A stretch of DNA of 52,305 bases from positions 1 through 52,305 of the forward strand of contig CAMSTM010000004.1 in assembly GCA_947063675.1 (NCBI GenBank). Direction: 5' to 3'. The notes under the pieces are model-generated. The model was given only the letters and a program-made list of their open reading frames with translations. It did not search any database and was not told the origin of the DNA. Shown here one piece after another: positions 2,575 through 52,305 of the stretch. The position numbers and the translations under genes are program-made. The stretch's first letter is position 1. Each line of letters opens with the position of its first letter. The stretch is from an uncultured Lachnospiraceae bacterium. Its GTDB lineage: Bacteria; Bacillota; Clostridia; Lachnospirales; Lachnospiraceae.

Positions 2575-3816
2575 TCAGGATAACCGGTGGATAAAAAGCC
2601 CGCTCCGCAGCTTCGGCTCAAACCAGGTAGATTTGGGAGGCATAAGGAGCCCGGCGTCGGCAACGGAGAGGAGCTCATCTATGGAGGTGGCATACATGGA
2701 AAAAGCAATTTCCATGTCATGGGCTACCCGGCGTTCCAGCTCGTCAAGCCCACGGATACCTCCTACGAAGTCGATTCGCCTGTCGGTTCTTGGGTCCTCA
2801 ATGTTCAGTATGGGAGAGAGCAGATAATCCTGTAAAATGGAAACATCCAGCCCAGCTACCGGGTGGGCGGAGCGCAAAGCCTCCCCGGCGGTAAGCAGAT
2901 ACCAGTTTCCGGCAAGGTACATGCCGAAAGTACCCTTTCCGGCCGGGGCAACCTGCTCTTTTCCTTTGCATTCAACAGAAAAACCGGCTTTCCTGACAGC
3001 GTCAATGAAACTCTCCGGCGAAAGAGCGTTTAAATCCTTTACCACCCTGTTATAAGGCATGATGGAGAGCTGGTCGTCGGGAAAAAGCACCGACAGAAAG
3101 CGGTTATATTCTTCATTGCCTGTACAGTCCGGGATTTCCGCACGGCGTTTTTGCCCTACCCTGACAGCGGAGGCGCAGCGGTGATGGCCGTCTGCTATGT
3201 AGGTGCACGGGATTTCCATAAAGAGGGCTTCCAGCCGGGAAATCACAGAAGCGTCCGATATGCGCCATACCCTGTGGGAGATGCCGTCCGGGGAAACAAA
3301 GTCATATAATAAGGGCTGTAATTTTGCCGTACTTACAATTTCATTAATCTTCTGACAGGAACGGTATGCCAGAAAGACAGGGCCTGTATGGGCGTTCGTG
3401 ACGTCCACATGGCGGATGCGGTCAAGCTCTTTATCTTCTCGGGTATTCTCGTGCTTTTTAATCAGATTATTCTCATAATCCTCCACAGAAGAACAGGCAA
3501 CGATTCCGGTCTGGGAACGGCCGTCCATAGTGAGCTCGTAAATATAATAACAGGGAACGTCTTCCATAATAAAGGAACCGTCTGATATCAGATTATCTAA
3601 AATTTCTCTGGCTTTCGCGTAAACCTCAGGGGCGTAAATGTCCGTACCGGCAGGAAACTGAGTTTCCGCCCGGTCGATTTTAAGGAAGGACAGGGGTTCC
3701 TTTTGCACTTCTATGAGAGCCTCATCCCTGCTGTAGACGTCATAGGGAAGGGCGGCAATCCGGCCGGCCAGCTCCGGTACGGGGCGGATACTTTGAAATG
3801 GGGTGACTTTTGGCAT
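2575..3816 (-). CDS. DUF1015 family protein
   Basis: This 413-residue protein has the DUF1015 signature: the N-terminal segment VTPFQSIRPVPELAGRIAALPYDV, a histidine-rich ADGHHRCASA motif near residue 210, and a C-terminal FVGGIRGLDELERRV segment. The family is widespread in anaerobes and its biochemical function is not established; conserved histidines and the compact single-domain length suggest an enzyme. A GGAGGA ribosome-binding site precedes the ATG. It converges on proB with 87 bases between stop codons; I see no clear U-tailed terminator in that gap. Family call is confident, role unknown. Confidence 0.85.
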   Translation of the reverse strand: MPKVTPFQSIRPVPELAGRIAALPYDVYSRDEALIEVQKEPLSFLKIDRAETQFPAGTDIYAPEVYAKAREILDNLISDGSFIMEDVPCYYIYELTMDGRSQTGIVACSSVEDYENNLIKKHENTREDKELDRIRHVDVTNAHTGPVFLAYRSCQKINEIVSTAKLQPLLYDFVSPDGISHRVWRISDASVISRLEALFMEIPCTYIADGHHRCASAVRVGQKRRAEIPDCTGNEEYNRFLSVLFPDDQLSIMPYNRVVKDLNALSPESFIDAVRKAGFSVECKGKEQVAPAGKGTFGMYLAGNWYLLTAGEALRSAHPVAGLDVSILQDYLLSPILNIEDPRTDRRIDFVGGIRGLDELERRVAHDMEIAFSMYATSIDELLSVADAGLLMPPKSTWFEPKLRSGLFIHRLS

Positions 3817-3893
3817 GAGGATTCCTCCGTTTTGATTATTTTATGCTTTTTCAACAGATTGTTTATTGTTACAGGTTTGCAGAAGCCTGCCCG

Positions 3894-4997
3894 CTAATCC
3901 CATAAGTTTCCAAGATATTTATCCTCTATCCCGGCAAGACGCTGCTTTACCTTAAGGGCCTTGAAGATACTTTCACGAAGCAGGTCTATAAGAGAGCAGA
4001 CGATATATACGGCAACTGCGGTGAGAACGATGAGGGCCGTTTCCAGAGGGACGGGGAAAAGCGCATAATGGGAAAAATTCTGTTCTAAAAGATAATTCCA
4101 TATCTGCGGCTGGCCGTGAATGATATAGACGCTGAAAGCCGCCGGTGCAAAAAGCCTGATAATTTTGTTGACGCTCCCGGAGGTTTGTAGTCTTTCAAAC
4201 AACAGCAGAAGAAAAATTCCGGCGGCCAGCATAAAAGGCGAGGTGTGGTAAATGAGATAATTTCCGCCAAAGGATGACAGCACGGGAATGAATCCGGTTT
4301 CCGCCGCAAGCCTGGACAGCCACATGATAAGAATCATCACTGAGTATCCGAGGAACAGCTTCGCGCAGCCGGATGTTTTAAACAGGCCGTACTTTCCGAT
4401 ATAACCGCCGATAATATATAATATCATCAGCCACCATGCGTTTGAGGACACGCCGAAAACATCTTTTCCGGGCAGGGTCTGCAAAACGGTAAAGGTAACG
4501 GCAAGACAGATTACAACGGCGCCAAGCTGTTTTTGATTCAGTTTGTTTATGGCGGGATTCAGCAGGGGGAGAAACATAAATAAGGCAAAATAAGCCGTAA
4601 AATACCAGTAGTAGCCGCTGAGCGTGGGCAGAAAAGCCCTTACCCAGTCCCGGAGAGTTACCGAGCCGGGAACAAAAACAGCAAAAATCAGGGTGATGCC
4701 TGCCGTGTAGAAAATAACCCGAAGCCACAGCAGAATAATATTATGATACCGGTATTTTGAATGGATTCCCACATAGCCGGAGATGAGGGCATAACAGTTT
4801 ACGGAGCAGTAGCCGACAATTTCCAGAAGCCATGCGGCTTTATACTGCGGGGACATGAATTCCACCGTTTCCAGAATGCCGCCCGGCCCTAAAATATGGG
4901 CGATGACCACCAAAAGCATTGCCAGCATCCGCAGAGCGTCTATGCCGTAATTGCGCCCGCCTTTTGCCGGCATGGCTGTATTACATTTTACATTCAT
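3894..4997 (-). CDS. acyltransferase 3 family membrane protein
   Basis: An integral membrane protein of about 367 residues with roughly ten hydrophobic segments and the acyltransferase-3 N-terminal signature: YGIDALRMLAMLLVVIAHI, where the histidine after the first membrane span is the expected catalytic residue. The family transfers acetyl or other acyl groups to sugars of cell-surface polymers; the acceptor here cannot be read from sequence. I place the start at 4997 (MNVKCN) because GGAG lies 7 bases before it; an in-frame ATG at 5012 would sit upstream of that site. It follows barstar by 73 bases on the same strand and may be co-transcribed, but a functional link is not implied. Confidence 0.8.
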   Translation of the reverse strand: MNVKCNTAMPAKGGRNYGIDALRMLAMLLVVIAHILGPGGILETVEFMSPQYKAAWLLEIVGYCSVNCYALISGYVGIHSKYRYHNIILLWLRVIFYTAGITLIFAVFVPGSVTLRDWVRAFLPTLSGYYWYFTAYFALFMFLPLLNPAINKLNQKQLGAVVICLAVTFTVLQTLPGKDVFGVSSNAWWLMILYIIGGYIGKYGLFKTSGCAKLFLGYSVMILIMWLSRLAAETGFIPVLSSFGGNYLIYHTSPFMLAAGIFLLLLFERLQTSGSVNKIIRLFAPAAFSVYIIHGQPQIWNYLLEQNFSHYALFPVPLETALIVLTAVAVYIVCSLIDLLRESIFKALKVKQRLAGIEDKYLGNLWD

Positions 4998-5070: not shown

Positions 5071-5340
5071 TTATTCCGCTGCCCATCCTATCAGAGGATT
5101 GTCATTGGCTGCCCTCTGAATCACTTTTTCCAGAAGCAGGGCATAATTCCCGAGATGCTCCCTTAAAGCGGCCTCATTCACAAGCCTGATTTCCGCATCC
5201 TCATGAAAATCGGTCAGGCAGTCGTACAAAGCGTCCAGATTGCCGCCGTACCAGCCGGGAAAATTCAGATTTTCCGCCAGAGTTTTGTGAAGCGCTTCTT
5301 TGTCTGTAATTTTGTTCCCATCTAATATACAAATTCGCAT
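5071..5340 (-). CDS. barstar-family ribonuclease inhibitor
   Basis: This 89-residue protein matches barstar across its length. Barstar is a cytoplasmic inhibitor that plugs the active site of barnase. The inhibitor helix reads WYGGNLDALYDCLTD at residues 30-44; the aspartates equivalent to barstar Asp35 and Asp39 are Asp36 and Asp40. The residue matching Tyr29 is Trp30, and the position matching Glu76 reads Arg in my alignment from memory. It lies 60 bases downstream of the barnase-like gene on the same strand, so it is the presumptive cognate immunity protein, keeping toxin that has not yet been exported inactive. AGGTG precedes the ATG. Confidence 0.9.
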   Translation of the reverse strand: MRICILDGNKITDKEALHKTLAENLNFPGWYGGNLDALYDCLTDFHEDAEIRLVNEAALREHLGNYALLLEKVIQRAANDNPLIGWAAE

Positions 5341-5400
5341 AATTTCACCTGTCTGTATCGGCGTTGGCTTGCCGCGGTATTTTCAAAATTTTACGTGTTT

Positions 5401-6126
5401 TTAATCGTCAGTGTCTTCTCCGTATAAGAGCTCAAAGGATTCATAGTGGTCTTCCGTATAGTAAATAAGACCGTCGTTGGAAAATACAATGCGCCTGGCT
5501 CCCCGTTTATCAGCGCCCAAGGTGTCGATATCGCATTCCGTATAGGTCCGTCCCTCTTTTTCCGGCAGCAGTCCTTCATAATTGCCGAAACGGCTTCCCC
5601 CGATACACATGCCCGGCGCATAGGGCTCCAGGGAGCCGCCCGGCCATCCCAGCTTTTCCGCTTCCTTTTTGGTTATAAAATTGGAAGGCAGATGGCCGTA
5701 GAGGTGAATATAACAGGCGACATCGTCTTTGGATGTGTAGGTGCCGTTTTCGTCCAGTGCCGGCGTTTCCTCTGCCGGTGATTCCGGGGGAGCGGAGGCA
5801 TCTGCCTTGCCCTCTTCCGGCGTCCCCTTTTCATCTTTGATTTCCGTGTCTTTTGCAGAAACGTCAGTTTCCGGTTTCTCCGGGGCCGTTGCTGTGCCGG
5901 TTTCCGTACTCTCTGCCTGAGGCGCTGTCGGGGTCTCTGCGGATTCAGAGGGAGGACTTTCTTCGTCATCCTCATCCGAGGTATTTTCCACATCGGCAAT
6001 TGAGCTGTCTGCGGAAGCTTCGTTTGCTGCTGCCTGTGTCTGCGGGACGGTATTGCGGGAAGACGCGCAGCCGGCCAGTAAAAGGGATAAAAGGAATATG
6101 GTAAAAATATTGAGGCGTTTCTTCAT
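5401..6126 (-). CDS. barnase-type ribonuclease lipoprotein
   Basis: A 241-residue predicted secreted guanyl-preferring RNase anchored as a lipoprotein. Residues 1-20 form a signal peptide with lipobox LAGC (Cys20). Residues 21-127 are a low-complexity stalk rich in Glu, Ser, Thr, Pro and Ala. Residues 128-236 align with barnase along its length. Barnase catalytic and substrate residues are present: Lys153 (K27), Glu197 (E73), Arg208 (R83), Arg212 (R87) and His227 (H102), the last in TEDHYESF. Barnase Arg59 is replaced by Tyr183. The catalytic set suggests an active enzyme. It is followed by a barstar gene, so this is a toxin-immunity pair. The tether suggests display on the outer face of the membrane, either for contact-dependent killing, RNA scavenging, or release by proteolysis; which of these applies is inference. 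Confidence 0.88.
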   Translation of the reverse strand: MKKRLNIFTIFLLSLLLAGCASSRNTVPQTQAAANEASADSSIADVENTSDEDDEESPPSESAETPTAPQAESTETGTATAPEKPETDVSAKDTEIKDEKGTPEEGKADASAPPESPAEETPALDENGTYTSKDDVACYIHLYGHLPSNFITKKEAEKLGWPGGSLEPYAPGMCIGGSRFGNYEGLLPEKEGRTYTECDIDTLGADKRGARRIVFSNDGLIYYTEDHYESFELLYGEDTDD

Positions 6127-6177
6127 TTTTCATTTTCTCCGTTTTTCATTATTGCCTTTTTCAGGCGGATTTTCTTC

Positions 6178-6206
6178 ATTATATATGGAAGGGATTGATA
6201 TTACAA
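6178..6206 (-). promoter_or_regulatory. sigma-A promoter for the barnase-barstar operon
   Basis: On the minus strand TTGTAA (plus-strand 6201-6206) and TATAAT (6178-6183) are separated by 17 bases, about 50 bases upstream of the barnase start codon. The match is good. Confidence 0.65.
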
Positions 6207-6430
6207 GATGATTCAGATTTTTAGAATGTGTCGTATGGGGATTAGGGGCGCGCAAGGGACGCACGAAGTCAGGGAAGCATTCCTCGTGCTGTCTCTGGGT
6301 AAATGACTGCAGTATTATAGGATGCTATTGTTAAATTGTGCATAATTAATAAATTCACAAGACAAGTTGCAGATAATTACAGCATGTTTGTAAAATATAT
6401 TGAAAGTACATTCCATAGAATGTGTGTTTA
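6207..6430. other. intergenic stretch without a recognised gene
   Basis: Between the divergent barnase and nanE promoters I see no open reading frame with a plausible start and ribosome-binding site, and no strong hairpin. Bases near 6240-6300 are GC-richer than the AT-rich remainder. Confidence 0.5.
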
Positions 6431-10870: not shown

Positions 10871-11701
10871 ATGATAAAGAAAAAATGGAATACAGGAATG
10901 ATAGTCCGGTATCTTGTAATTTTTGCAGTAAGTCTTGCCTTCCTTCTTCCCTTTATCTGGATGATTTTATGCTCCTTTAAAACGGAACGGGAACTGTTCA
11001 CCACACCGGTTGTATTTTTGCCGGAAACACTGAGATTTGAGAATTACAGGGATGCGGTCACCCAGATTCCCTTTTTAAGATTTACAATGAATACCGTGTA
11101 TATTTGCGTACTGTCTATTTCAGGCGTACTGCTTTCCGGCTCTATGGTTGCCTTTTCCGTATCCAAATTGAAATGGCGGGGAAGAGGACTGGTCTTTACA
11201 CTGGTGATTGCCAGTATGATGATTCCCTATCAGGTTACCATGATTCCAATTTATATGGCGTGGAACCAGCTCGGGCTGGTGGATACCTATGTGCCGTTAA
11301 TTCTGCCCTGTTTTTTCGCGCCGTCTCTGTACGTATTCCTTCTTCGGCAATTTTTCCTCACAATTCCCGATTCCCTGATGGACGCGTCAAAAATTGACGG
11401 GGCTGCCGATTTTCGAATCTGGTGGGATATTATGATTCCGTTGTCAAAAGGGATTATGGATACAGTCGGAATTTTCGTGTTCGTATATACCTGGTCGGAC
11501 TTCATGGGGCCCTTGCTTTATATCAATTCCATGGAAAAAAGGACACTGTCTCTTGGAATGACAATGTTCTTAAGCGAGCACGAAGTAAAATGGGGGGCGC
11601 TCATGGCAGCGTCCGCGATATTTAACTTTATCATTATTATTCCCTATCTGTGCTGCCAGAAGCAGCTTGTTAATTCCGTGAAATTGTCAGGTTTTAAATA
11701 A
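10871..11701 (+). CDS. ABC sugar transporter permease (MalG/UgpE type)
   Basis: The second permease, 276 residues with six predicted spans and an EAA-type loop (LMDASKIDGAADFRIWWDIMIPLSKG). I choose the ATG at 10871 because AAGGAG at 10856-10861 lies 9 bases before it; a longer in-frame start at 10847 would overlap the previous gene by 20 bases and leave this ribosome-binding site inside the coding region. It completes the importer with the genes at 8466 and 9937. The C-terminal QLVNSVKLSGFK ending resembles the usual KGLTAGAVKG-type ending of the family. Confidence 0.88.
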   Translation: MIKKKWNTGMIVRYLVIFAVSLAFLLPFIWMILCSFKTERELFTTPVVFLPETLRFENYRDAVTQIPFLRFTMNTVYICVLSISGVLLSGSMVAFSVSKLKWRGRGLVFTLVIASMMIPYQVTMIPIYMAWNQLGLVDTYVPLILPCFFAPSLYVFLLRQFFLTIPDSLMDASKIDGAADFRIWWDIMIPLSKGIMDTVGIFVFVYTWSDFMGPLLYINSMEKRTLSLGMTMFLSEHEVKWGALMAASAIFNFIIIIPYLCCQKQLVNSVKLSGFK

Positions 11702-11716
11702 GGTTGGGAGGATTTT

Positions 11717-12646
11717 ATGGGGAAGCAGTATATATGTGTGGACATTGGCGGAACCTTCATCAAGCATGGGCTTGTCAGCCGGACAGGGGACTTCCTTCAC
11801 AAGGGCGCTGTAGAAACGGAAAGTAAAAAAGGGGCTTCGGCAATATTGGAAAAAGTAGACGGGATTATTCAGAATTATTTACCGGGCAGGGAAACGGAAG
11901 GCATCTGTCTGTCCACTGCCGGAATTGTGGATGCTGATGAAGGAACCATAATTCATGCCAATGCTAATATTCCGAATTATGCAGGAACAAATCTGAAAGG
12001 ATATTTTGAAGATAAATATGGCATTCCGTGCGAGGTGGAAAACGATGTAAACTGTGCGGGACTGGCGGAGAGCGTTTCCGGGGCGGCAGCAGGAAAAAAG
12101 ATTGCATTTTGCCTTACTGTAGGAACAGGGATTGGAGGGTGCCTTGTGGTGGACGGAAATATTTTTCATGGGGGAAACAACTGCGCCTGCGAGGTGGGAT
12201 ATATGAAGTCCGGGAAAGGGAGCTTTGAACCGGAAGGCACGGTAAGCATGCTCGTTGCCGAGGCAGCCCGCAGAAAAGGAGAGCCGCTTTTTGCGTGGAA
12301 CGGAAAACGTGTGCTTTGTGAAGCAAAACGGGGAGACAGGGACTGTATAGATGTGTTAGAATATATGACAGCGGTATTAGGAGCGGGAATCGCCAATGTA
12401 TGCTATGTCGTCAATCCGGAAATCGTCGTGCTGGGGGGAGGTATCATGGGAAAAGAGTATGAGGATTTGCTGTATCCCAGAATAAGAACGGCAATGGACA
12501 GCCATTTAATCCCGATTATCGCACAGCAGACAGAATTGAAAATGGCGGTACACCGCAACGATGCCGGAATGCTGGGGGCTTTTTATCATTTCAGGAAACG
12601 CCGGGAGAAGGAACAGTGGAAAATAAATCAATTATCCCTATTATAG
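11717..12646 (+). CDS. nanK: ROK-family sugar kinase, probable N-acetylmannosamine kinase
   Basis: A 309-residue ROK kinase: phosphate-1 motif VDIGGTFIKHGLV at residues 8-20, catalytic segment VENDVNCAGLAE near 103, and phosphate-2 motif TVGTGIGGCLVVDG near 134. The zinc-binding CXCGXXGC cluster of many ROK proteins is absent; the corresponding region reads YMKSGKGSFEPEGTVS. Co-location with nanE makes phosphorylation of N-acetylmannosamine to ManNAc-6-phosphate the likely reaction; glucose or N-acetylglucosamine kinase activity cannot be excluded. GTTGGGAGG lies about 10 bases before the ATG. The 3' end overlaps the regulator gene by 31 bases. Confidence 0.8.
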   Translation: MGKQYICVDIGGTFIKHGLVSRTGDFLHKGAVETESKKGASAILEKVDGIIQNYLPGRETEGICLSTAGIVDADEGTIIHANANIPNYAGTNLKGYFEDKYGIPCEVENDVNCAGLAESVSGAAAGKKIAFCLTVGTGIGGCLVVDGNIFHGGNNCACEVGYMKSGKGSFEPEGTVSMLVAEAARRKGEPLFAWNGKRVLCEAKRGDRDCIDVLEYMTAVLGAGIANVCYVVNPEIVVLGGGIMGKEYEDLLYPRIRTAMDSHLIPIIAQQTELKMAVHRNDAGMLGAFYHFRKRREKEQWKINQLSLL

Positions 12647-13452
12647 AATCAAAATATGACAGCTTTACCAATACAGAAAAGACGGTGGCGGATTTTTTTA
12701 TACACAATACGGAGCAAATTGATTTTTCTGCAAGCAATATTTCAAAAATTATTTTCACTTCGGAAGCCGCTTTGTCGCGTTTCGCCCGGAAATGCGGCTA
12801 CAGCGGCTACAGGGAATTTAAATACTTATATGAGCGTTCCATTGCAGGCAGGCCGGGAATCAGGAAGGCCAATGTTTTGCCTGTACTTAATGTGTATCAG
12901 GAACTGATTTCCAAGACTTACAGTCTTGTGGACGAGGCCCAGATTAACCGGGTGGTGGAAGCGGTCTACAAAAAGAAAAGGATTGTGGTCTGTGGTGTGG
13001 GAAGCTCCGGTCTGGCGGCTCAGGAAATGGAGAACCGATTCATGCGGATTGGCGTGGACATTGACTCTCTGCAGGAATATGACAGAATCCGTATGAAAGC
13101 CGCGTCGATTGACGAAACCGATATGATACTTGGTATCAGTGTGAGCGGAACCTCGGAGTCCGTTCTGTTTTTATTGCAGGTTGCCCGGTCGAAAGGCGCC
13201 GGAACAGTGCTTATTACGGCCAATAACAAAGCGGCTTTTAAGGAGGTGTGCGACGAAGTTATTTTAATTGCCTCTACAATGCATCTGGAAGCAGGTAACA
13301 CGATTTCGCCGCAGTTTCCCGTCCTTGTTATGGTGGATATTCTCTATTATGAGTATTTAAGCCGCAATACCAAAGAAAAGAAAGCAATTCATGAGGATTC
13401 TCTCCGTATGCTGAATTCAAAGGGATTTCCGGTAAATCAAAAACTTTTATAA
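12616..13452 (+). CDS. RpiR-family transcriptional regulator with SIS domain
   Basis: A 278-residue regulator with an N-terminal RpiR helix-turn-helix (residues 1-75: TEKTVADFFIHNTEQIDF, SEAALSRFARKCGYSGYREFK) and a C-terminal SIS phosphosugar-binding domain (IVVCGVGSSGLAAQEMENRF near 118; GISVSGTSESVLFLLQVARS near 174; TISPQFPVLVMVDILYYEYL near the end). RpiR proteins sense phosphosugars and control amino-sugar operons. Its place at the end of the nanE-nanK operon makes it the probable controller, with the palindrome at 6468-6481 as candidate operator. The start is a GTG preceded by GAGAAGGA, inside the kinase gene. Confidence 0.9.
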   Translation: MENKSIIPIIESKYDSFTNTEKTVADFFIHNTEQIDFSASNISKIIFTSEAALSRFARKCGYSGYREFKYLYERSIAGRPGIRKANVLPVLNVYQELISKTYSLVDEAQINRVVEAVYKKKRIVVCGVGSSGLAAQEMENRFMRIGVDIDSLQEYDRIRMKAASIDETDMILGISVSGTSESVLFLLQVARSKGAGTVLITANNKAAFKEVCDEVILIASTMHLEAGNTISPQFPVLVMVDILYYEYLSRNTKEKKAIHEDSLRMLNSKGFPVNQKLL

Positions 13453-13460
13453 AAAACCCC

Positions 13461-13489
13461 TTGCATCTTCCCCAAACATCGTGTATACT
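13461..13489 (+). promoter_or_regulatory. sigma-A promoter of the S10 ribosomal operon
   Basis: TTGCAT (13461-13466) and TATACT (13484-13489) are separated by 17 bases, just after the RpiR stop codon. Transcription would start near 13496 and produce a leader of about 325 bases before rpsJ. Confidence 0.7.
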
Positions 13490-13495
13490 AATAAA

Positions 13496-13820
13496 CGCTG
13501 TGGCATGATAGCGAAGAAGCGAGAGGTTGCTGCAATGCCGAAAGGCGCTGCAGGTTTTCCGTGGAGCGAATGTCAAGAGGCGCAGTCATATGAGCTGAGC
13601 CAAAGAACCTGACGGCAAGTCACTGTACAAACATATTGTCTGCGCAGGGCTGCAGAAACGCAGTACCTGATAAGCAGAAACGCGGGCGTTAAGCGTGCCG
13701 GATAAGTATGCGGGAAACCGCATTTGGTTTACGGGAAGGCATGACACGCACGGCAGAGTGTACAGTCACCGCTTGTCGTACTTAAATTTTAAAAAGTGCG
13801 AAAAGGAGGCGACTTTTTTT
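13496..13820 (+). promoter_or_regulatory. long structured 5' leader of the S10 operon
   Basis: This 325-base stretch holds no credible gene but several hairpins. One has arms at about 13530-13540 and 13543-13553 closed by a GAAA loop with a small internal loop. Another is a perfect 6-base-pair stem with GAAA loop at 13708-13723. There is no T-run, so it is not a simple terminator. Length and position fit an autoregulatory ribosomal-protein leader; L4 is the known regulator of S10 operons in other bacteria, and firmicute L4 leaders have been proposed, but no binding site can be proven here. AAGGAGG at 13803-13809 serves rpsJ. Confidence 0.5.
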
Positions 13821-14138
13821 ATGGCAAGTCAAGTAATGAGAATCACACTCAAGGCTTATGACCATCAGCTGGTTGATGCGTCTGCCAGAAAAATCATCGA
13901 AACTGTTAAGAAGAATGGCTCTCAGGTGAGCGGACCGGTACCCCTTCCCACAAAGAAAGAGGTTGTTACTATTTTAAGAGCGGTTCACAAGTATAAGGAT
14001 TCCAGAGAACAGTTCGAGCAGAGAACCCACAAGAGGCTGATTGATATCATCACACCTACACCCAAGACAGTTGATGCCCTGCAGAGACTGGAGATGCCGG
14101 CCGGTGTGTATATTGATATTAAGATGAAGACAAAATAA
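13821..14138 (+). CDS. rpsJ: 30S ribosomal protein S10
   Basis: S10 belongs to the head of the small subunit and, with NusB, takes part in antitermination of rRNA transcription. The 105-residue product shows the family pattern: [31 protein letters not shown] near 36, and [14 protein letters not shown] near 60. The reading frame is open further upstream to 13695, but the ATG at 13821 follows AAGGAGG and starts the protein at the usual position, so the extension is leader sequence. It is the first gene of the S10-spc-alpha cluster. Confidence 0.96.
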
Positions 14139-14229
14139 GTTCTTCAAAACGCGGAGCTTCCGCGTGCAACCCCTGACACTAGAATGGCCCGATATGGGCC
14201 CGCTGTAGAAATTAATTGGAGGTAAAGAA

Positions 14230-14913
14230 ATGAAAAAAGCTATTTTAGCTACCAAAGTCGGAATGACTCAAATCTTCAACGAAGACGGAAGTCTGATTCC
14301 TGTAACCGTGCTTTCAGCCGGTCCTTGTGTTGTGACACAGATTAAGACTGTTGAGAACGACGGCTACAGTGCAGTACAGGTCGGATATGCCGACAAGAAA
14401 GAAAGAATTGTCAATAAGGACAAGGGCGGAAGAAAGGAAATCGTTCACAGGCACGGCGTTGGCAAGGCTCTGAAAGGCCACTATGACAAAGCCGGCGTTT
14501 CCTGCAAGAGATTCCTCCGCGAGTTCAAGTTTGACAATGCGGAAGAGTATACGCTTGGAAGCGAAATCAAGGCTGATATGTTTGCAGTCGGCGATATGGT
14601 TGACGCGTCCGCCATTTCCAAAGGTAAAGGATTCCAGGGCGCAATCAAGAGACATGGACAGCACAGAGGTCCCATGACCCATGGTTCCAAGTTCCATCGT
14701 CATCAGGGTTCTAACGGCGCCTGCTCCTCACCGAGCCGTGTATTCAAGGGAAAAGGGATGCCCGGTCACATGGGATGCGTAAAGGTGACAGTACAGAACC
14801 TTGAGGTTGTAAGGGTGGATGCCGAGAAGAATCTGCTTCTCATCAAAGGCTCCGTGCCCGGGCCGAAGAAGGGGCTTATTACAATCAAAGAAGCTGTGAA
14901 GGCTGCAAATTAA
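14230..14913 (+). CDS. rplC: 50S ribosomal protein L3
   Basis: L3 is an early assembly protein of the large subunit whose extended loop reaches the peptidyl transferase centre. The 227-residue product has the N-terminal [23 protein letters not shown] and the long basic loop [27 protein letters not shown] (within about 137-165), both diagnostic. It is slightly longer than the roughly 210 residues common in the family because of extra sequence around residues 70-100. TTGGAGGTAAAGAA precedes the ATG. A 91-base gap separates it from rpsJ. Confidence 0.96.
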
Positions 14914-14943
14914 GCAGTCAGATGAAAGGAGGACCATAAAGAG

Positions 14944-15564
14944 ATGGCAAACGTATCTGTTTATAATATGGAAGGCAAAGAAGTCGGCACGATGGAATTA
15001 AACGATGCGATATTCGGTGTGGAAGTAAATGAGCACCTGGTACACATGGCGGTTGTGCAGCATCTTGCCAATAAGCGTCAGGGAACGCAGAAAGCGAAAA
15101 CCCGTTCCGAGGTTTCCGGCGGCGGAAGAAAGCCCTGGAGGCAGAAAGGAACCGGCCATGCAAGACAGGGTTCCATCAGAGCGCCTCAGTGGAAAGGCGG
15201 CGGCGTGGTATTTGCGCCCGTGCCGAGAGATTATTCTTTCAGAATCAATAAAAAGGAAAAAAGAGCGGCCCTTAAGTCCGTACTCACAAGCAGAGTGGCG
15301 GGCGGCAAGCTGATTGTTGTCGATGAGCTTAAGATGGACGAGATTAAGACCAAAAAGTTCAAAGCGGTTATGGATAACCTGAAAGTAAGCAAGGCGCTGG
15401 TTGTTCTTCCCGAGGTTGACGAAAAAGTGGTTCTGTCCGCAAGAAACCTTCCCGCCATTGACACGACAATAGTTCAGACGATGAATGTTTACGATATCCT
15501 GAAAGGCGACACGCTGGTTCTTACAAAGGGCGCGGTAGCCAAGATTGAGGAGGTGTTTGCATAA
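14944..15564 (+). CDS. rplD: 50S ribosomal protein L4
   Basis: L4 lines the peptide exit tunnel and in several bacteria also represses its own S10 operon. The 206-residue product contains the characteristic basic loop [19 protein letters not shown] near residues 60-78 and the [22 protein letters not shown] segment. Macrolide-resistance changes usually map to this loop; here it reads as wild-type-like. The stop overlaps the start of rplW by one base, indicating coupling. Confidence 0.96.
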
Positions 15565-48682: not shown

Positions 48683-50440
48683 ATGAAAGTGTTACAGAGA
48701 AACGGACAGGCAATTGAAGGAAATTTTGAGCAAAAGGAAGTCAGGGAGGCGTTCTGGCATACCAGCGCCCACGTGTTGGCGCAGGCGGTAAAGCGTCTGT
48801 ACCCGGATACGCAGTGCGCCATAGGGCCGGCTATTGAAAACGGTTTTTATTATGATTTCGACTTCGGTTTTCCTTTTACGGAAGAAAATTTAGGGGACGT
48901 GGAGAAGGAAATGCGGAAAATCGTAAAGGAATCACTGACGCTGGAGGTTTACGAGGTTTCCAAAGAGGAAGCCATAGCTTATATGAAAGAAAACGGCGAA
49001 AACTGGAAGCTGGAGCTGATAGAAGGTCTTTCGGAGGGCGAGCGCATCAGCTTTTACCGTCAGGGGGACTATGCGGAATTTTGCGCCGGGCCTCATATCA
49101 CGAATACGTCGCTGATTAAGGCATTTAAGCTTCTGTCCATTGCCGGGGCTTACTGGCGGGGAGACGAACACAATAAAATGCTGACAAGAATTTACGGGAT
49201 ATCATTTCCGAAAGCTTCAGAACTGGAAACATACCTTACGCAGTTGGCGGAGGCGAAGGCCAGGGACCACAGGAAGCTGGGAAAAGAGCTGGGGCTGTTT
49301 GCGCTTATGGAAGAGGGGCCGGGATTTCCTTTTTTCCTTCCGAAAGGGATGGTGCTGAAAAATCTGCTCATTGATTACTGGAGAAAGATACATGAGCGGG
49401 AAGGCTATATGGAAATTTCCACGCCCGTTATGCTGAGCAGGGAGCTGTGGGAGACTTCCGGGCACTGGGAGCATTACCGGGAAAATATGTATACCTCGGT
49501 GATTGACGGGGAGGATTTTGCCATCAAGCCCATGAACTGCCCCGGCGGAATGCTGGTGTATAAGATGGAACCCCGTTCCTACAGGGAATTGCCCATGCGG
49601 CTGGGGGAGCTGGGCGTGGTTCACCGGCATGAAAAGTCCGGGCAGCTTCACGGCCTCATGCGTGTGAGAAGCTTTACGCAGGACGACGCTCACATTTTTA
49701 TGACACAGGAGCAGATTGTAGGGGAGATACAAAACGTTGCAAGGCTGATTGACGAGTTTTATACGAAATTCGGTTTTACTTATTATGTGGAGCTGTCCAC
49801 GAAGCCGGAGGACAGCATTGGCAGCGAGGAGGAATGGGAGCTGGCAACGGCGGCGCTGGAGAACGCCATTAAAGGAATGGGGATTCCCTACACGGTGAAC
49901 GAGGGGGACGGAGCCTTTTACGGGCCCAAGCTTGATTTTCATCTGAAGGATTCCATTGGCCGTACCTGGCAGTGCGGAACCATTCAGCTTGATTTTCAGC
50001 TTCCACAGCGTTTTGAAGCGGAGTATGTGGGAGCGGACGGGGAAAAGCACCGGCCCATTATGATTCATAGAGTGGTGTTTGGCTCCATCGAACGGTTTAT
50101 CGGCATTTTAATCGAGCATTACGCGGGTAAGTTCCCTGTGTGGCTCTCGCCGGTTCAGGTAAAAATTCTCCCGGTGTCGGATAAATATCTGGATTACGGG
50201 GAAAAGGTGATGGCGGAGCTTAAGAGCCGGAACGTTCGGGTTGAGATGGACGGGCGAAATGAAAAGCTGGGATATAAAATCAGAGAGGCGCGGCTTGAAA
50301 AGGTTCCTTATATGCTGATTGTGGGGGAGAAAGAACAGGAGAATAACACGGTGACGGTAAGGCGCCGTGACGGGGAAGAAGGGAAACAGGATTTGGGAGA
50401 GATGAGAGTGGAGGAGTTTGTAGAAAAAGGTTTTACCTGA
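48683..50440 (+). CDS. thrS: threonine--tRNA ligase lacking the TGS domain
   Basis: Charges tRNA-Thr. The 585-residue product starts directly with the editing-domain region: HTSAHVLAQAVKRL (His26, His30) and FCAGPHI near residue 137 form the zinc-like editing site. The class II core follows with PKGMVLKNLLIDYWRKIHE, MNCPGGMLVYK, and RVRSFTQDDAHIF, then WQCGTIQLDFQLPQRFEAEYVG and a C-terminal anticodon-binding domain (SPVQVKILPVSDKYLDYGEKVM). Classical enzymes are about 640 residues with an N-terminal TGS domain, absent here. The ATG at 48683 follows AGGAGGG; the frame extends two codons upstream to a TTG. A T-box controls it. Confidence 0.95.
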   Translation: MKVLQRNGQAIEGNFEQKEVREAFWHTSAHVLAQAVKRLYPDTQCAIGPAIENGFYYDFDFGFPFTEENLGDVEKEMRKIVKESLTLEVYEVSKEEAIAYMKENGENWKLELIEGLSEGERISFYRQGDYAEFCAGPHITNTSLIKAFKLLSIAGAYWRGDEHNKMLTRIYGISFPKASELETYLTQLAEAKARDHRKLGKELGLFALMEEGPGFPFFLPKGMVLKNLLIDYWRKIHEREGYMEISTPVMLSRELWETSGHWEHYRENMYTSVIDGEDFAIKPMNCPGGMLVYKMEPRSYRELPMRLGELGVVHRHEKSGQLHGLMRVRSFTQDDAHIFMTQEQIVGEIQNVARLIDEFYTKFGFTYYVELSTKPEDSIGSEEEWELATAALENAIKGMGIPYTVNEGDGAFYGPKLDFHLKDSIGRTWQCGTIQLDFQLPQRFEAEYVGADGEKHRPIMIHRVVFGSIERFIGILIEHYAGKFPVWLSPVQVKILPVSDKYLDYGEKVMAELKSRNVRVEMDGRNEKLGYKIREARLEKVPYMLIVGEKEQENNTVTVRRRDGEEGKQDLGEMRVEEFVEKGFT

Positions 50441-50607: not shown

Positions 50608-50616
50608 TGGTATAAT
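50608..50616 (+). promoter_or_regulatory. extended -10 promoter for the RelA/SpoT-like and HD genes
   Basis: TGG directly precedes a perfect TATAAT (50611-50616). Transcription would start near 50623, so the ATG at 50622 would be at the very end of the message and the ATG at 50643 is the more likely start. Confidence 0.55.
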
Positions 50617-50642
50617 TTGCTATGATAAGCGGAGAAGAAGGA

Positions 50643-51596
50643 ATGGAAAATTCAGAACAAGAGCAGTTATATGTTAGGCAATATGAAGATAACTTAAACA
50701 AGTATGAAAACTTTTGCATTTATTTAGAAAGCCAGCTTAGGGAAGTTATAAAGGAAATGGATGTTTCTTACTATGAACTAAGTTATCGAATTAAAACATT
50801 GGATTCTATTTTGGAAAAAGCAGAAAGAAATTCCTTATCTATGTCGGAAATCTATGATGTTATTGGTTTTCGTATTGTTACGTTGTTTAAACGTGATGCG
50901 TCTGCCATTTGTGATGTTGTCCGAAAAGTATTCCGGGTTGTATGGGAAAGTGATAAAGCAGAAGGAAAGCCTGCTGATACATTTGGGTATTTATCTGTCC
51001 ATTTTCAAATTAAATTACCTGGAGAGTGGCTTCATGCGCCAACCACCCGTGGCTTTGCTGGTGTGGAAGCCGAGTTGCAAGTCCGGACTTTCAGCCAGCA
51101 TATTTGGGCGGCATCTTCACATCTCTTGCAGTATAAGATGGAGTCTGTCATACCTTATGTGATGCGTCGTAATATTAATCGTTTATCAGCTGTTCTGGAA
51201 ATTGTGGATGATGAGTTGGAATCCATTTTAAAAGCAAAGGAGGGATATCAGTCATATTTGTTGGAAACATCTTGCAGGGAAGATGAGCAGTCAGAAATCC
51301 TTTTGGATAGCATCCTCCTGGAACATATTTTAGATGAGGTTTTTGAGGGGGAAAATAAAAGACCGCAGGAACCTTTTGATGATTTGCTAAATGAACTGTT
51401 TTTTTGTGATATAAGAACAGTAGGACAGCTTAAAGAGCTTCTTTCCAGTGAGCTGGAAAGTATTCAGAAAAAGGAAGATAAGAAAAAGAAAAATAGTGGC
51501 AAAGCATTTTACAGTTATGCAGGCAGGCTAAGAATTGCAATGCAAGCGCATTTTCCCGGTATATACGAAAAAATGCGTATGGAATACTATAAATGA
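50643..51596 (+). CDS. RelA/SpoT-domain nucleotide synthetase-like protein
   Basis: A 317-residue soluble protein with a (p)ppGpp synthetase-like fold and no HD hydrolase domain, TGS or ACT domain. Synthetase motifs are all present: YRIKTLDSILEK (Arg49, Lys51, Ser55, Lys59), YDVIGFRIV (Asp72, Gly75, Arg77), FGYLSVHF (Tyr116, Ser118, His120) and EAELQVRTFSQHIWA (Glu144, Gln146, Arg148). The C-terminal 150 residues are helical and end in a charged KKEDKKKKNS stretch. Family members make (p)ppGpp, or as ToxSAS toxins make (p)ppApp or pyrophosphorylate tRNA. GGAG precedes the ATG at 50643; an ATG at 50622 is the alternative. The stop overlaps the HD gene by 4 bases. Confidence 0.85.
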   Translation: MENSEQEQLYVRQYEDNLNKYENFCIYLESQLREVIKEMDVSYYELSYRIKTLDSILEKAERNSLSMSEIYDVIGFRIVTLFKRDASAICDVVRKVFRVVWESDKAEGKPADTFGYLSVHFQIKLPGEWLHAPTTRGFAGVEAELQVRTFSQHIWAASSHLLQYKMESVIPYVMRRNINRLSAVLEIVDDELESILKAKEGYQSYLLETSCREDEQSEILLDSILLEHILDEVFEGENKRPQEPFDDLLNELFFCDIRTVGQLKELLSSELESIQKKEDKKKKNSGKAFYSYAGRLRIAMQAHFPGIYEKMRMEYYK

Positions 51597-52261
51597 AAAA
51601 TAGGGGATTAAATGAAATGATAGATGCAGACGATACCAGTGTATTCAGAGACCCCATTCACGGACTGGTTCTCGTATATCCCTGGGAACGAAAATTAATT
51701 GATACGGAAGAATTTCAAAGACTTCGCCGAATACATCAACTTAGCATGACATACCTGATTTACCATGGGGCAGAACATACCAGATTTGGGCATAGCATTG
51801 GCGTGATGCATATTGCCGGGCGTGTAATGGAGCATTTGAGAAAATTTGAACCATTAAAAAGTTTGAGCGAGAACATATTTTTTGAGAAAAAGGCCTTAGT
51901 ACGCATGGCAGCACTCCTTCATGATATTGGCCACGGTTGTTTCTCACATGTTGGAGAAAATGAAACTAATATTTATCCTGCTTTAAGCGACCCGGTTAGT
52001 GGAGAAATGGTATCTGGCCACGAAGTTTATACCCGATGTATTATCAAGGAAAAACTGTCAAAAATAATCGAAGAGTTCTGGCCAAAGTCGGCGGAACGCA
52101 GTATGGTAGAAGATATTCTGATGATTCTCAGCCAAGGTTCCAGTGACCCCACTTATCGATTTTTTGATGATATTATCAGCGGCCAGTTGGACTGTGATAA
52201 AATGGATTATCTTTTAAGAGACAGTCATTATTGTGGAGTCGAGTACGGTGTTTTCGATTAG
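51593..52261 (+). CDS. HD phosphohydrolase (SAMHD1/dGTPase-like), C-terminally truncated
   Basis: A 222-residue HD-domain protein starting in the stop codon of the synthetase-like gene (ATGA); an alternative start is ATG 51617 after AGGGG. The N-terminal part matches the COG1078/SAMHD1-type dNTP triphosphohydrolases: FRDPIHGLVLV, EEFQRLRRIHQL, GAEHTRFGHSIGV. The catalytic set is visible: His67, His110-Asp111 (LLHDIGHGCFSHVGE) and Asp200 (SGQLDCDKMDYLLRDS). The frame stops at TAG right after EYGVFD, where relatives continue for about 200 residues. So the catalytic core is complete but the C-terminal half is missing, either natural or a recombination junction at the window end. Confidence 0.8.
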   Translation: MKNRGLNEMIDADDTSVFRDPIHGLVLVYPWERKLIDTEEFQRLRRIHQLSMTYLIYHGAEHTRFGHSIGVMHIAGRVMEHLRKFEPLKSLSENIFFEKKALVRMAALLHDIGHGCFSHVGENETNIYPALSDPVSGEMVSGHEVYTRCIIKEKLSKIIEEFWPKSAERSMVEDILMILSQGSSDPTYRFFDDIISGQLDCDKMDYLLRDSHYCGVEYGVFD

Positions 52262-52305
52262 TCTTGGGTCTGTTACTTTTATTTGCATACTTTTATTGTC
52301 ATAAT

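Follow-up and report, generated by a model that had tools for sequence, protein, structure and literature searches.

A RelA/SpoT-type synthetase gene overlapping a truncated SAMHD1-type HD gene in a Lachnospiraceae contig: possible left part of a mobile three-gene cassette

We studied the right end of a contig from an uncultured Lachnospiraceae bacterium (CAMSTM010000004.1), where a gene for a stand-alone RelA/SpoT-type small alarmone synthetase (SAS) overlaps a gene for an HD phosphohydrolase of the SAMHD1/EF1143 type. The window, i.e., the whole stretch of DNA analysed, is this entire contig of 52305 bases, and the genome has 3.74 Mb in 272 contigs. The same two genes, followed by a third one coding for 178 amino acids (aa), were found in a row in a genome of another genus, named G1126 here. 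The reading we prefer, and hold tentatively, is that the locus belongs to a rare, horizontally moving three-gene cassette that would attack the nucleotide pool, and of which the window has the left part, cut in the second gene; such a cassette would probably be anti-phage.

The pair lies downstream of thrS, which ends at position 50440, and presents the following features:

50608..50616, forward strand: extended -10 element (TG-G-TATAAT), read by eye from the sequence, which probably serves the unit as promoter
50643..51596, forward strand: small alarmone synthetase of the RelA/SpoT type, probably 317 aa long (324 aa in the longest frame, from 50622), from the Pfam RelA_SpoT match
51593..51596, forward strand: ATGA overlap of exactly 4 bases between the synthetase stop and the HD start, from the sequence
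51593..52261, forward strand: front half of the SAMHD1/EF1143-type HD phosphohydrolase gene, 222 aa of about 520, from the PDB match and the orthologues
52262..52305, no strand: final 44 bases of the contig, with no match elsewhere; either the edge of an inserted element or the point where the assembly stops

The start at 50643 is the likelier one, because just 5 bases separate the -10 element from the ATG at 50622 and a GGAG stands 8 bases 5' of the ATG at 50643; the start of the G1126 orthologue agrees with it. The original prediction, made from the letters of the window, had described a stand-alone synthetase-like protein with all four motif groups, a 4-base overlap with an HD phosphohydrolase gene, DNA richer in AT than the flank, and a single extended -10 promoter. 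The synthetase (see below) and the overlap are as described, and so is the base composition, with a GC content of 37.4% in the synthetase gene and 40.5% in the HD frame vs 50.6% in thrS just upstream. The promoter element was seen by eye but is absent from the results of a promoter scan that requires two hexamers and that gave 8 promoter-like sites against 6.3 +/- 2.4 expected, i.e., no excess. As for the HD gene, the dNTPase (deoxynucleoside triphosphate hydrolase) branch was recovered, but only the front half is present (222 aa vs 518-525 aa). The prediction was right in outline and is partly confirmed, the truncation being its one decisive gap.

An HD search in 397 genomes of the same family returned three close orthologues, in genomes G1136, G1126 and G1025. 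In G1126, whose genome is a single contig, the synthetase (311 aa, 56% identical to that of the window), the HD gene (521 aa, 75% identical, starting 24 bases after the synthetase) and the 178-aa gene (97 bases past the HD gene) follow each other, between flanking genes unlike those of the window. We consider the pairing to be more than chance because this second genome also has the two side by side and in that order. Type I-C cas3 and cas5 genes (11132-15417 of locus L355) come further downstream, 2.5 to 5.8 kb after the 178-aa gene. A mobile accessory cassette is suggested by the equally low GC content in both genomes, by the differing sites, and by a relative whose thrS DNA is 92% identical and which lacks the cassette at that site. 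The final 44 bases of the window gave no further strong match in its own genome, 59 relatives, viral contigs or plasmids. In L355, an unassigned gene for 326 aa stands immediately before cas3 and cas5.

The HD protein of the window matched EF1143 (PDB 2o6i/4lrl) over residues 16-222 with an E value of 3.7e-30. As in the EF1143/SAMHD1 dNTPases, all four metal ligands are kept: H67, H110, D111 and D202 align with H66, H110, D111 and D183 of EF1143 (ligand list in PMC8177086, partial text), the chain being offset from the published numbering by an inferred 24 residues that fit all four. From its family, the full-length enzyme is predicted to hydrolyse dNTPs. Unlike those enzymes, the window copy lacks its second half and shares an operon with a synthetase. 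The three orthologues have 518-525 aa and are 75-77% identical over the window part, whose frame ends at D222 with a stop 44 bases before the contig end. Most HD relatives align to D222, or to within a few residues of it, and then continue; what is gone is the HD-associated region, PF19276, found from residue 225 onwards in the G1126 protein. Reading the forward frames of the last 47 bases by eye revealed nothing HD-like, and a search of the assembly (E up to 1) did not turn up the rest of the gene; its query was the diverged relative L066, so that a match could have been missed. The HD gene of the window is thus a truncated gene and not one for a full-length enzyme; the contig end may reflect an assembly artefact rather than damage. 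In another locus (L074, G215:C60) the HD domain lies within an open frame of 1569 aa, an apparent fusion.

The synthetase matched Pfam RelA_SpoT (4.4e-19), the PADLOC model PDC-S33 (5.2e-13) and phrog_9640 (5.8e-35). It kept all the residues invariant in 24 aligned relatives, including R56, K58, D79, R84, Y123, H127, E151, Q153 and R155, and so presents the feature of toxic SAS (toxSAS) proteins of being a stand-alone RelA/SpoT synthetase domain with its catalytic residues. The closest solved structures were RelQ/YjbM and RelP: the PDB profile scores were 5.4e-35 for YjbM, 4.9e-8 for CapRel and 0.0023 for FaRel2, and the Foldseek template modelling (TM) score to CapRel was 0.33-0.38, the structure being nearer to RelQ/RelP than to CapRel. 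A tree was built from 208 sequences, without CapRel, FaRel and PhRel, and its deeper support was low (0.36-0.83). The window synthetase grouped there with its G1126 orthologue (support 1.0), inside a clade of 14 members (0.994); of the 12 remaining members, 10 came from IMG/VR viral contigs. It stood apart from the three other RelA/SpoT homologue (RSH) proteins of its genome and from the RelQ-like group, a placement that speaks against clustering with housekeeping RelQ/RelP, one of the outcomes that would have refuted the original prediction.

The AlphaFold model of the synthetase (mean predicted local distance difference test, pLDDT, 87.6) presented only helices in the C-terminal part. The protein has one YXXY motif, at 209-212, which is absent from the G1126 orthologue; past residue 200 the motif occurs in only 7 of 26 sequences, window included, at varying positions. 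Self-inhibition like that of CapRel, by a C-terminal pseudo-zinc-finger with YXXY, was considered, and the non-conserved motif, the helical C-terminus and the low TM score argue against it.

Eight loci of the synthetase group (L182, L183, L184, L185, L186, L188, L189 and L190) had one neighbouring gene in common, which coded for a phage portal protein in all five tested, and the synthetases there were single genes. In L185, terminase and scaffold genes came next after the portal gene, an order that we take to be that of P2-like phages. The neighbourhood may be a site where P2-like prophages carry defence cargo, and defence genes have been described at hotspots of these phages (PMC9122126, partial text). 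Two synthetases of this family lie less than 1.2 kb apart in L159 (Bacterium UASB270; 3028-4110 and 5243-6322). Another one, at 3941-4951 of L022, belongs to an 8.1-kb filamentous Vibrio phage (PQ189320.1), where it is annotated as a hypothetical protein with the note Nucleotidyltransferase.

The third gene belongs to a family that accompanies the HD genes more regularly. A stand-alone gene resembling the C-terminal domain (CTD) of the antitoxin DarG follows the HD gene in 36 of the 45 close SAMHD1-type cases examined; the loci include L066-L073, L094, L262-L264, L266, L280, L326-L328, L330-L333, L335-L342, L354, L355 and L358-L360. The family of the 178-aa protein shares with DarTG the fold of the DarG CTD, seen in one member, and a weak sequence similarity. 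It differs in that the match of the partner is confined to the C-terminal half of DarG, that the domain stands alone beside an HD enzyme, and that a scan of seven L355 proteins gave neither DarT nor a macro domain; for the window, the partner gene would lie outside. The antitoxin-like part is more likely this third gene, beyond the contig, than the HD protein. In Bacillus subtilis, ywgA comes directly after ywfO. The pair of HD and DarG-CTD-like genes is apparently widespread and without a name so far. Among the literature matches listed, with few subscription papers, none described a dNTPase adjoining a RelA/SpoT synthetase, nor a Panacea or DarG-like protein as the partner of an HD dNTPase. 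The Panacea paper (PMC8832971) does not use the terms 'HD domain', 'dNTP' or 'SAMHD1' in its main text; that of PMC10440598 lacks 'HD domain', 'SAMHD1' and 'DarG' and has 'dNTP' once. In the more distant HD loci L275, L277, L084 and L091, a weakly similar gene of 166-171 aa lies directly upstream of the HD gene instead. In L357 (6374-8425) the HD gene is broken into two frames by a stop and the DarG-CTD-like partner is whole.

The proposed cassette would consist of the small alarmone synthetase, a dNTP triphosphohydrolase of the SAMHD1 type, and a small protein that resembles an antitoxin and has the DarG-CTD fold. The hydrolase would be the main effector, breaking down dNTPs and starving phage DNA replication, and its DarG-CTD-like partner, judged from fold and position, probably restrains it until infection. 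The synthetase, co-translated with it, probably adds an independent or signalling activity; it could mount a second attack on purine nucleotides by transferring pyrophosphate from ATP to GTP/GDP, to AMP/ADP/ATP or to tRNA ends. Both enzymes together would halt growth and phage production. The enzymatic activities are predicted from family membership; the toxicity, the restraint exerted by the partner, the action against phage and the cooperation of synthetase and hydrolase are putative.

Several findings weigh against the cassette. The window's own copy is probably non-functional. G1136 has the HD gene and a small gene without the synthetase, and G1025 has the HD gene alone (6.7 kb downstream examined); tblastn with both synthetases gave no trace in either HD locus. 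The synthetase adjoins the HD gene in two of the four genomes known to carry the orthologue, i.e., in two genomes only, and no HD gene adjoins the synthetase in any of the 214 other loci, which stand for 205 distinct proteins, RelQ/RelP-like ones among them. HD-partner pairs also occur in ordinary-looking surroundings, e.g., on a Priestia megaterium plasmid, and the HD gene of a Staphylococcus aureus plasmid has no DarG-CTD-like partner; the HD gene therefore need not be a defence gene. The relA gene of phage P1 alone did not lower fitness (PMC10865808, partial text), which calls for caution in assuming toxicity of the synthetase. Lastly, the synthetase relatives are single genes without HD, so the pair may merely travel together. 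The recurrence of the pairing, a condition set in the original prediction, was narrowly borne out, by G1126 against the 214 other loci; the idea of a linked defence-type module was strengthened by this second genome, the number of genomes being small. The interpretation given in the original prediction is supported in part.

In the reverse direction, the synthetase was beside none of 64 other HD loci (61 distinct). Most loci of both sets had flanks of 1.5 to 5 kb, and those near a contig end had less. The synthetase searches covered 60 relatives and 392 genomes of the order, and the HD search 392 genomes of the order; a one-conserved-motif scan contributed the best 80 of at least 325 genome loci and the best 80 of 102 viral loci, to which 29 viral HD loci were added. 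Among plasmid and phage records, surroundings were examined in 8 of 42 with a synthetase match and 8 of 53 with an HD match. A scan of a genome-contig collection gave no confirmed relative. No synthetase appeared in the 28 loci read out of 29 others from an HD search of 398 genomes of the phylum, and 255 genomes around G1126, at least ten of them of its genus, contained no other close orthologue (G1136 and G1025 were not returned).

These counts bear on the first alternative, that two independent accessory genes, a phage-derived lone synthetase and an HD-partner pair, each self-sufficient, are carried together in defence islands by chance. Synthetase relatives are single in phages, HD-partner pairs are common without a synthetase, and G1136 and G1025 have no synthetase at this place. 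We nevertheless regard it as unlikely, for order and strand are the same in two genera despite the divergence of the proteins (56% and 75% identity) and the differing flanks, and the genes are closely spaced, with a 4-base overlap in the window or a 24-base gap in G1126.

Slightly less probable, in our estimate, is a signalling arrangement like that of Clover, in which the nucleotide made by the synthetase would switch the dNTP hydrolase on or off through allosteric sites, as a sensor or brake with its effector. Clover (CloA, a dGTPase, and CloB, a nucleotidyltransferase) has been reported from proteobacteria, Bacillus, Clostridia and Myxococcia, and its dGTPase is restrained by p3diT, the product of the paired nucleotide-making enzyme (PMC12265719, partial text). 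Guanine nucleotides also control EF1143 and SAMHD1 at an allosteric site (PMC8177086, partial text), and the adjacency and 4-base overlap would favour a fixed stoichiometry. Clover is the closest working analogue, with an HD-class dNTP hydrolase encoded together with a nucleotide-making enzyme, a likeness by family only. Its partner CloB, however, is a Pol-beta-type nucleotidyltransferase that makes p3diT, whereas the enzyme here is of the RelA/SpoT type, so the present locus is not Clover; moreover, the G1126 locus holds a third, DarG-CTD-like protein. Against such signalling also stand the two HD orthologues without an adjoining synthetase, the control already available from a protein partner, and the missing second half of the window's HD protein. 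More doubtful still is a specific form of it, a Clover-like circuit built from stringent-response parts, in which an alarmone-like signal of the RelA/SpoT-type enzyme would gate the SAMHD1-type dNTPase while a free-standing DarG-antitoxin-like domain would keep the dNTPase inactive.

The original prediction had also suggested that the pair makes and removes a toxic nucleotide, i.e., a type IV toxin-antitoxin system in which the HD protein would degrade the alarmone of the synthetase. A small alarmone hydrolase antitoxin does flank FaRel (PMC11782079, partial text), and phosphorylated nucleotides are substrates of HD enzymes. Unlike the neighbour in FaRel-type modules, the HD protein here matched models and structures of the dNTPase branch, with no RelA/SpoT-type (small alarmone hydrolase) HD model or structure among its matches, so that its identity as an alarmone hydrolase is not supported; in addition, the HD family is mostly found with the DarG-antitoxin-like partner and without a synthetase. 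The antagonism was not borne out, and we consider it very improbable.

With the toxSAS proteins (FaRel, FaRel2, PhRel and CapRel) the synthetase shares its small RelA/SpoT domain in accessory, phage-linked DNA, and, with the solo C-terminally extended ones, a similar length (the CapRel chain has 373 aa). It differs in a catalytic domain that by profile is nearer to RelQ/YjbM than to CapRel or FaRel2, in the YXXY motif not conserved in the window group, and in its dNTPase-type HD neighbour. The models PDC-S33 and phrog_9640 were both matched by 25 of 25 aligned family members; the PDC-S33 match of the window is limited to residues 34-164, and among the other family loci only G1126 has an HD neighbour.

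Least probable of all is a decaying remnant without present function here, with an inactive cut HD protein and a leftover synthetase or an extra housekeeping-like SAS: the HD gene is truncated and its remainder was not found in the assembly, but the synthetase frame and catalytic residues are intact, the break may be an artefact of assembly, and G1126 has the intact triple.

If the cassette we tentatively propose works as one unit, bacteria would combine the making of alarmones with the destruction of dNTPs in one anti-phage system, and the stringent-response enzyme family would be tied to SAMHD1-like immunity. The widespread pair of HD and DarG-CTD-like genes would offer a testable answer to the question of how bacterial SAMHD1-type enzymes spare their host.
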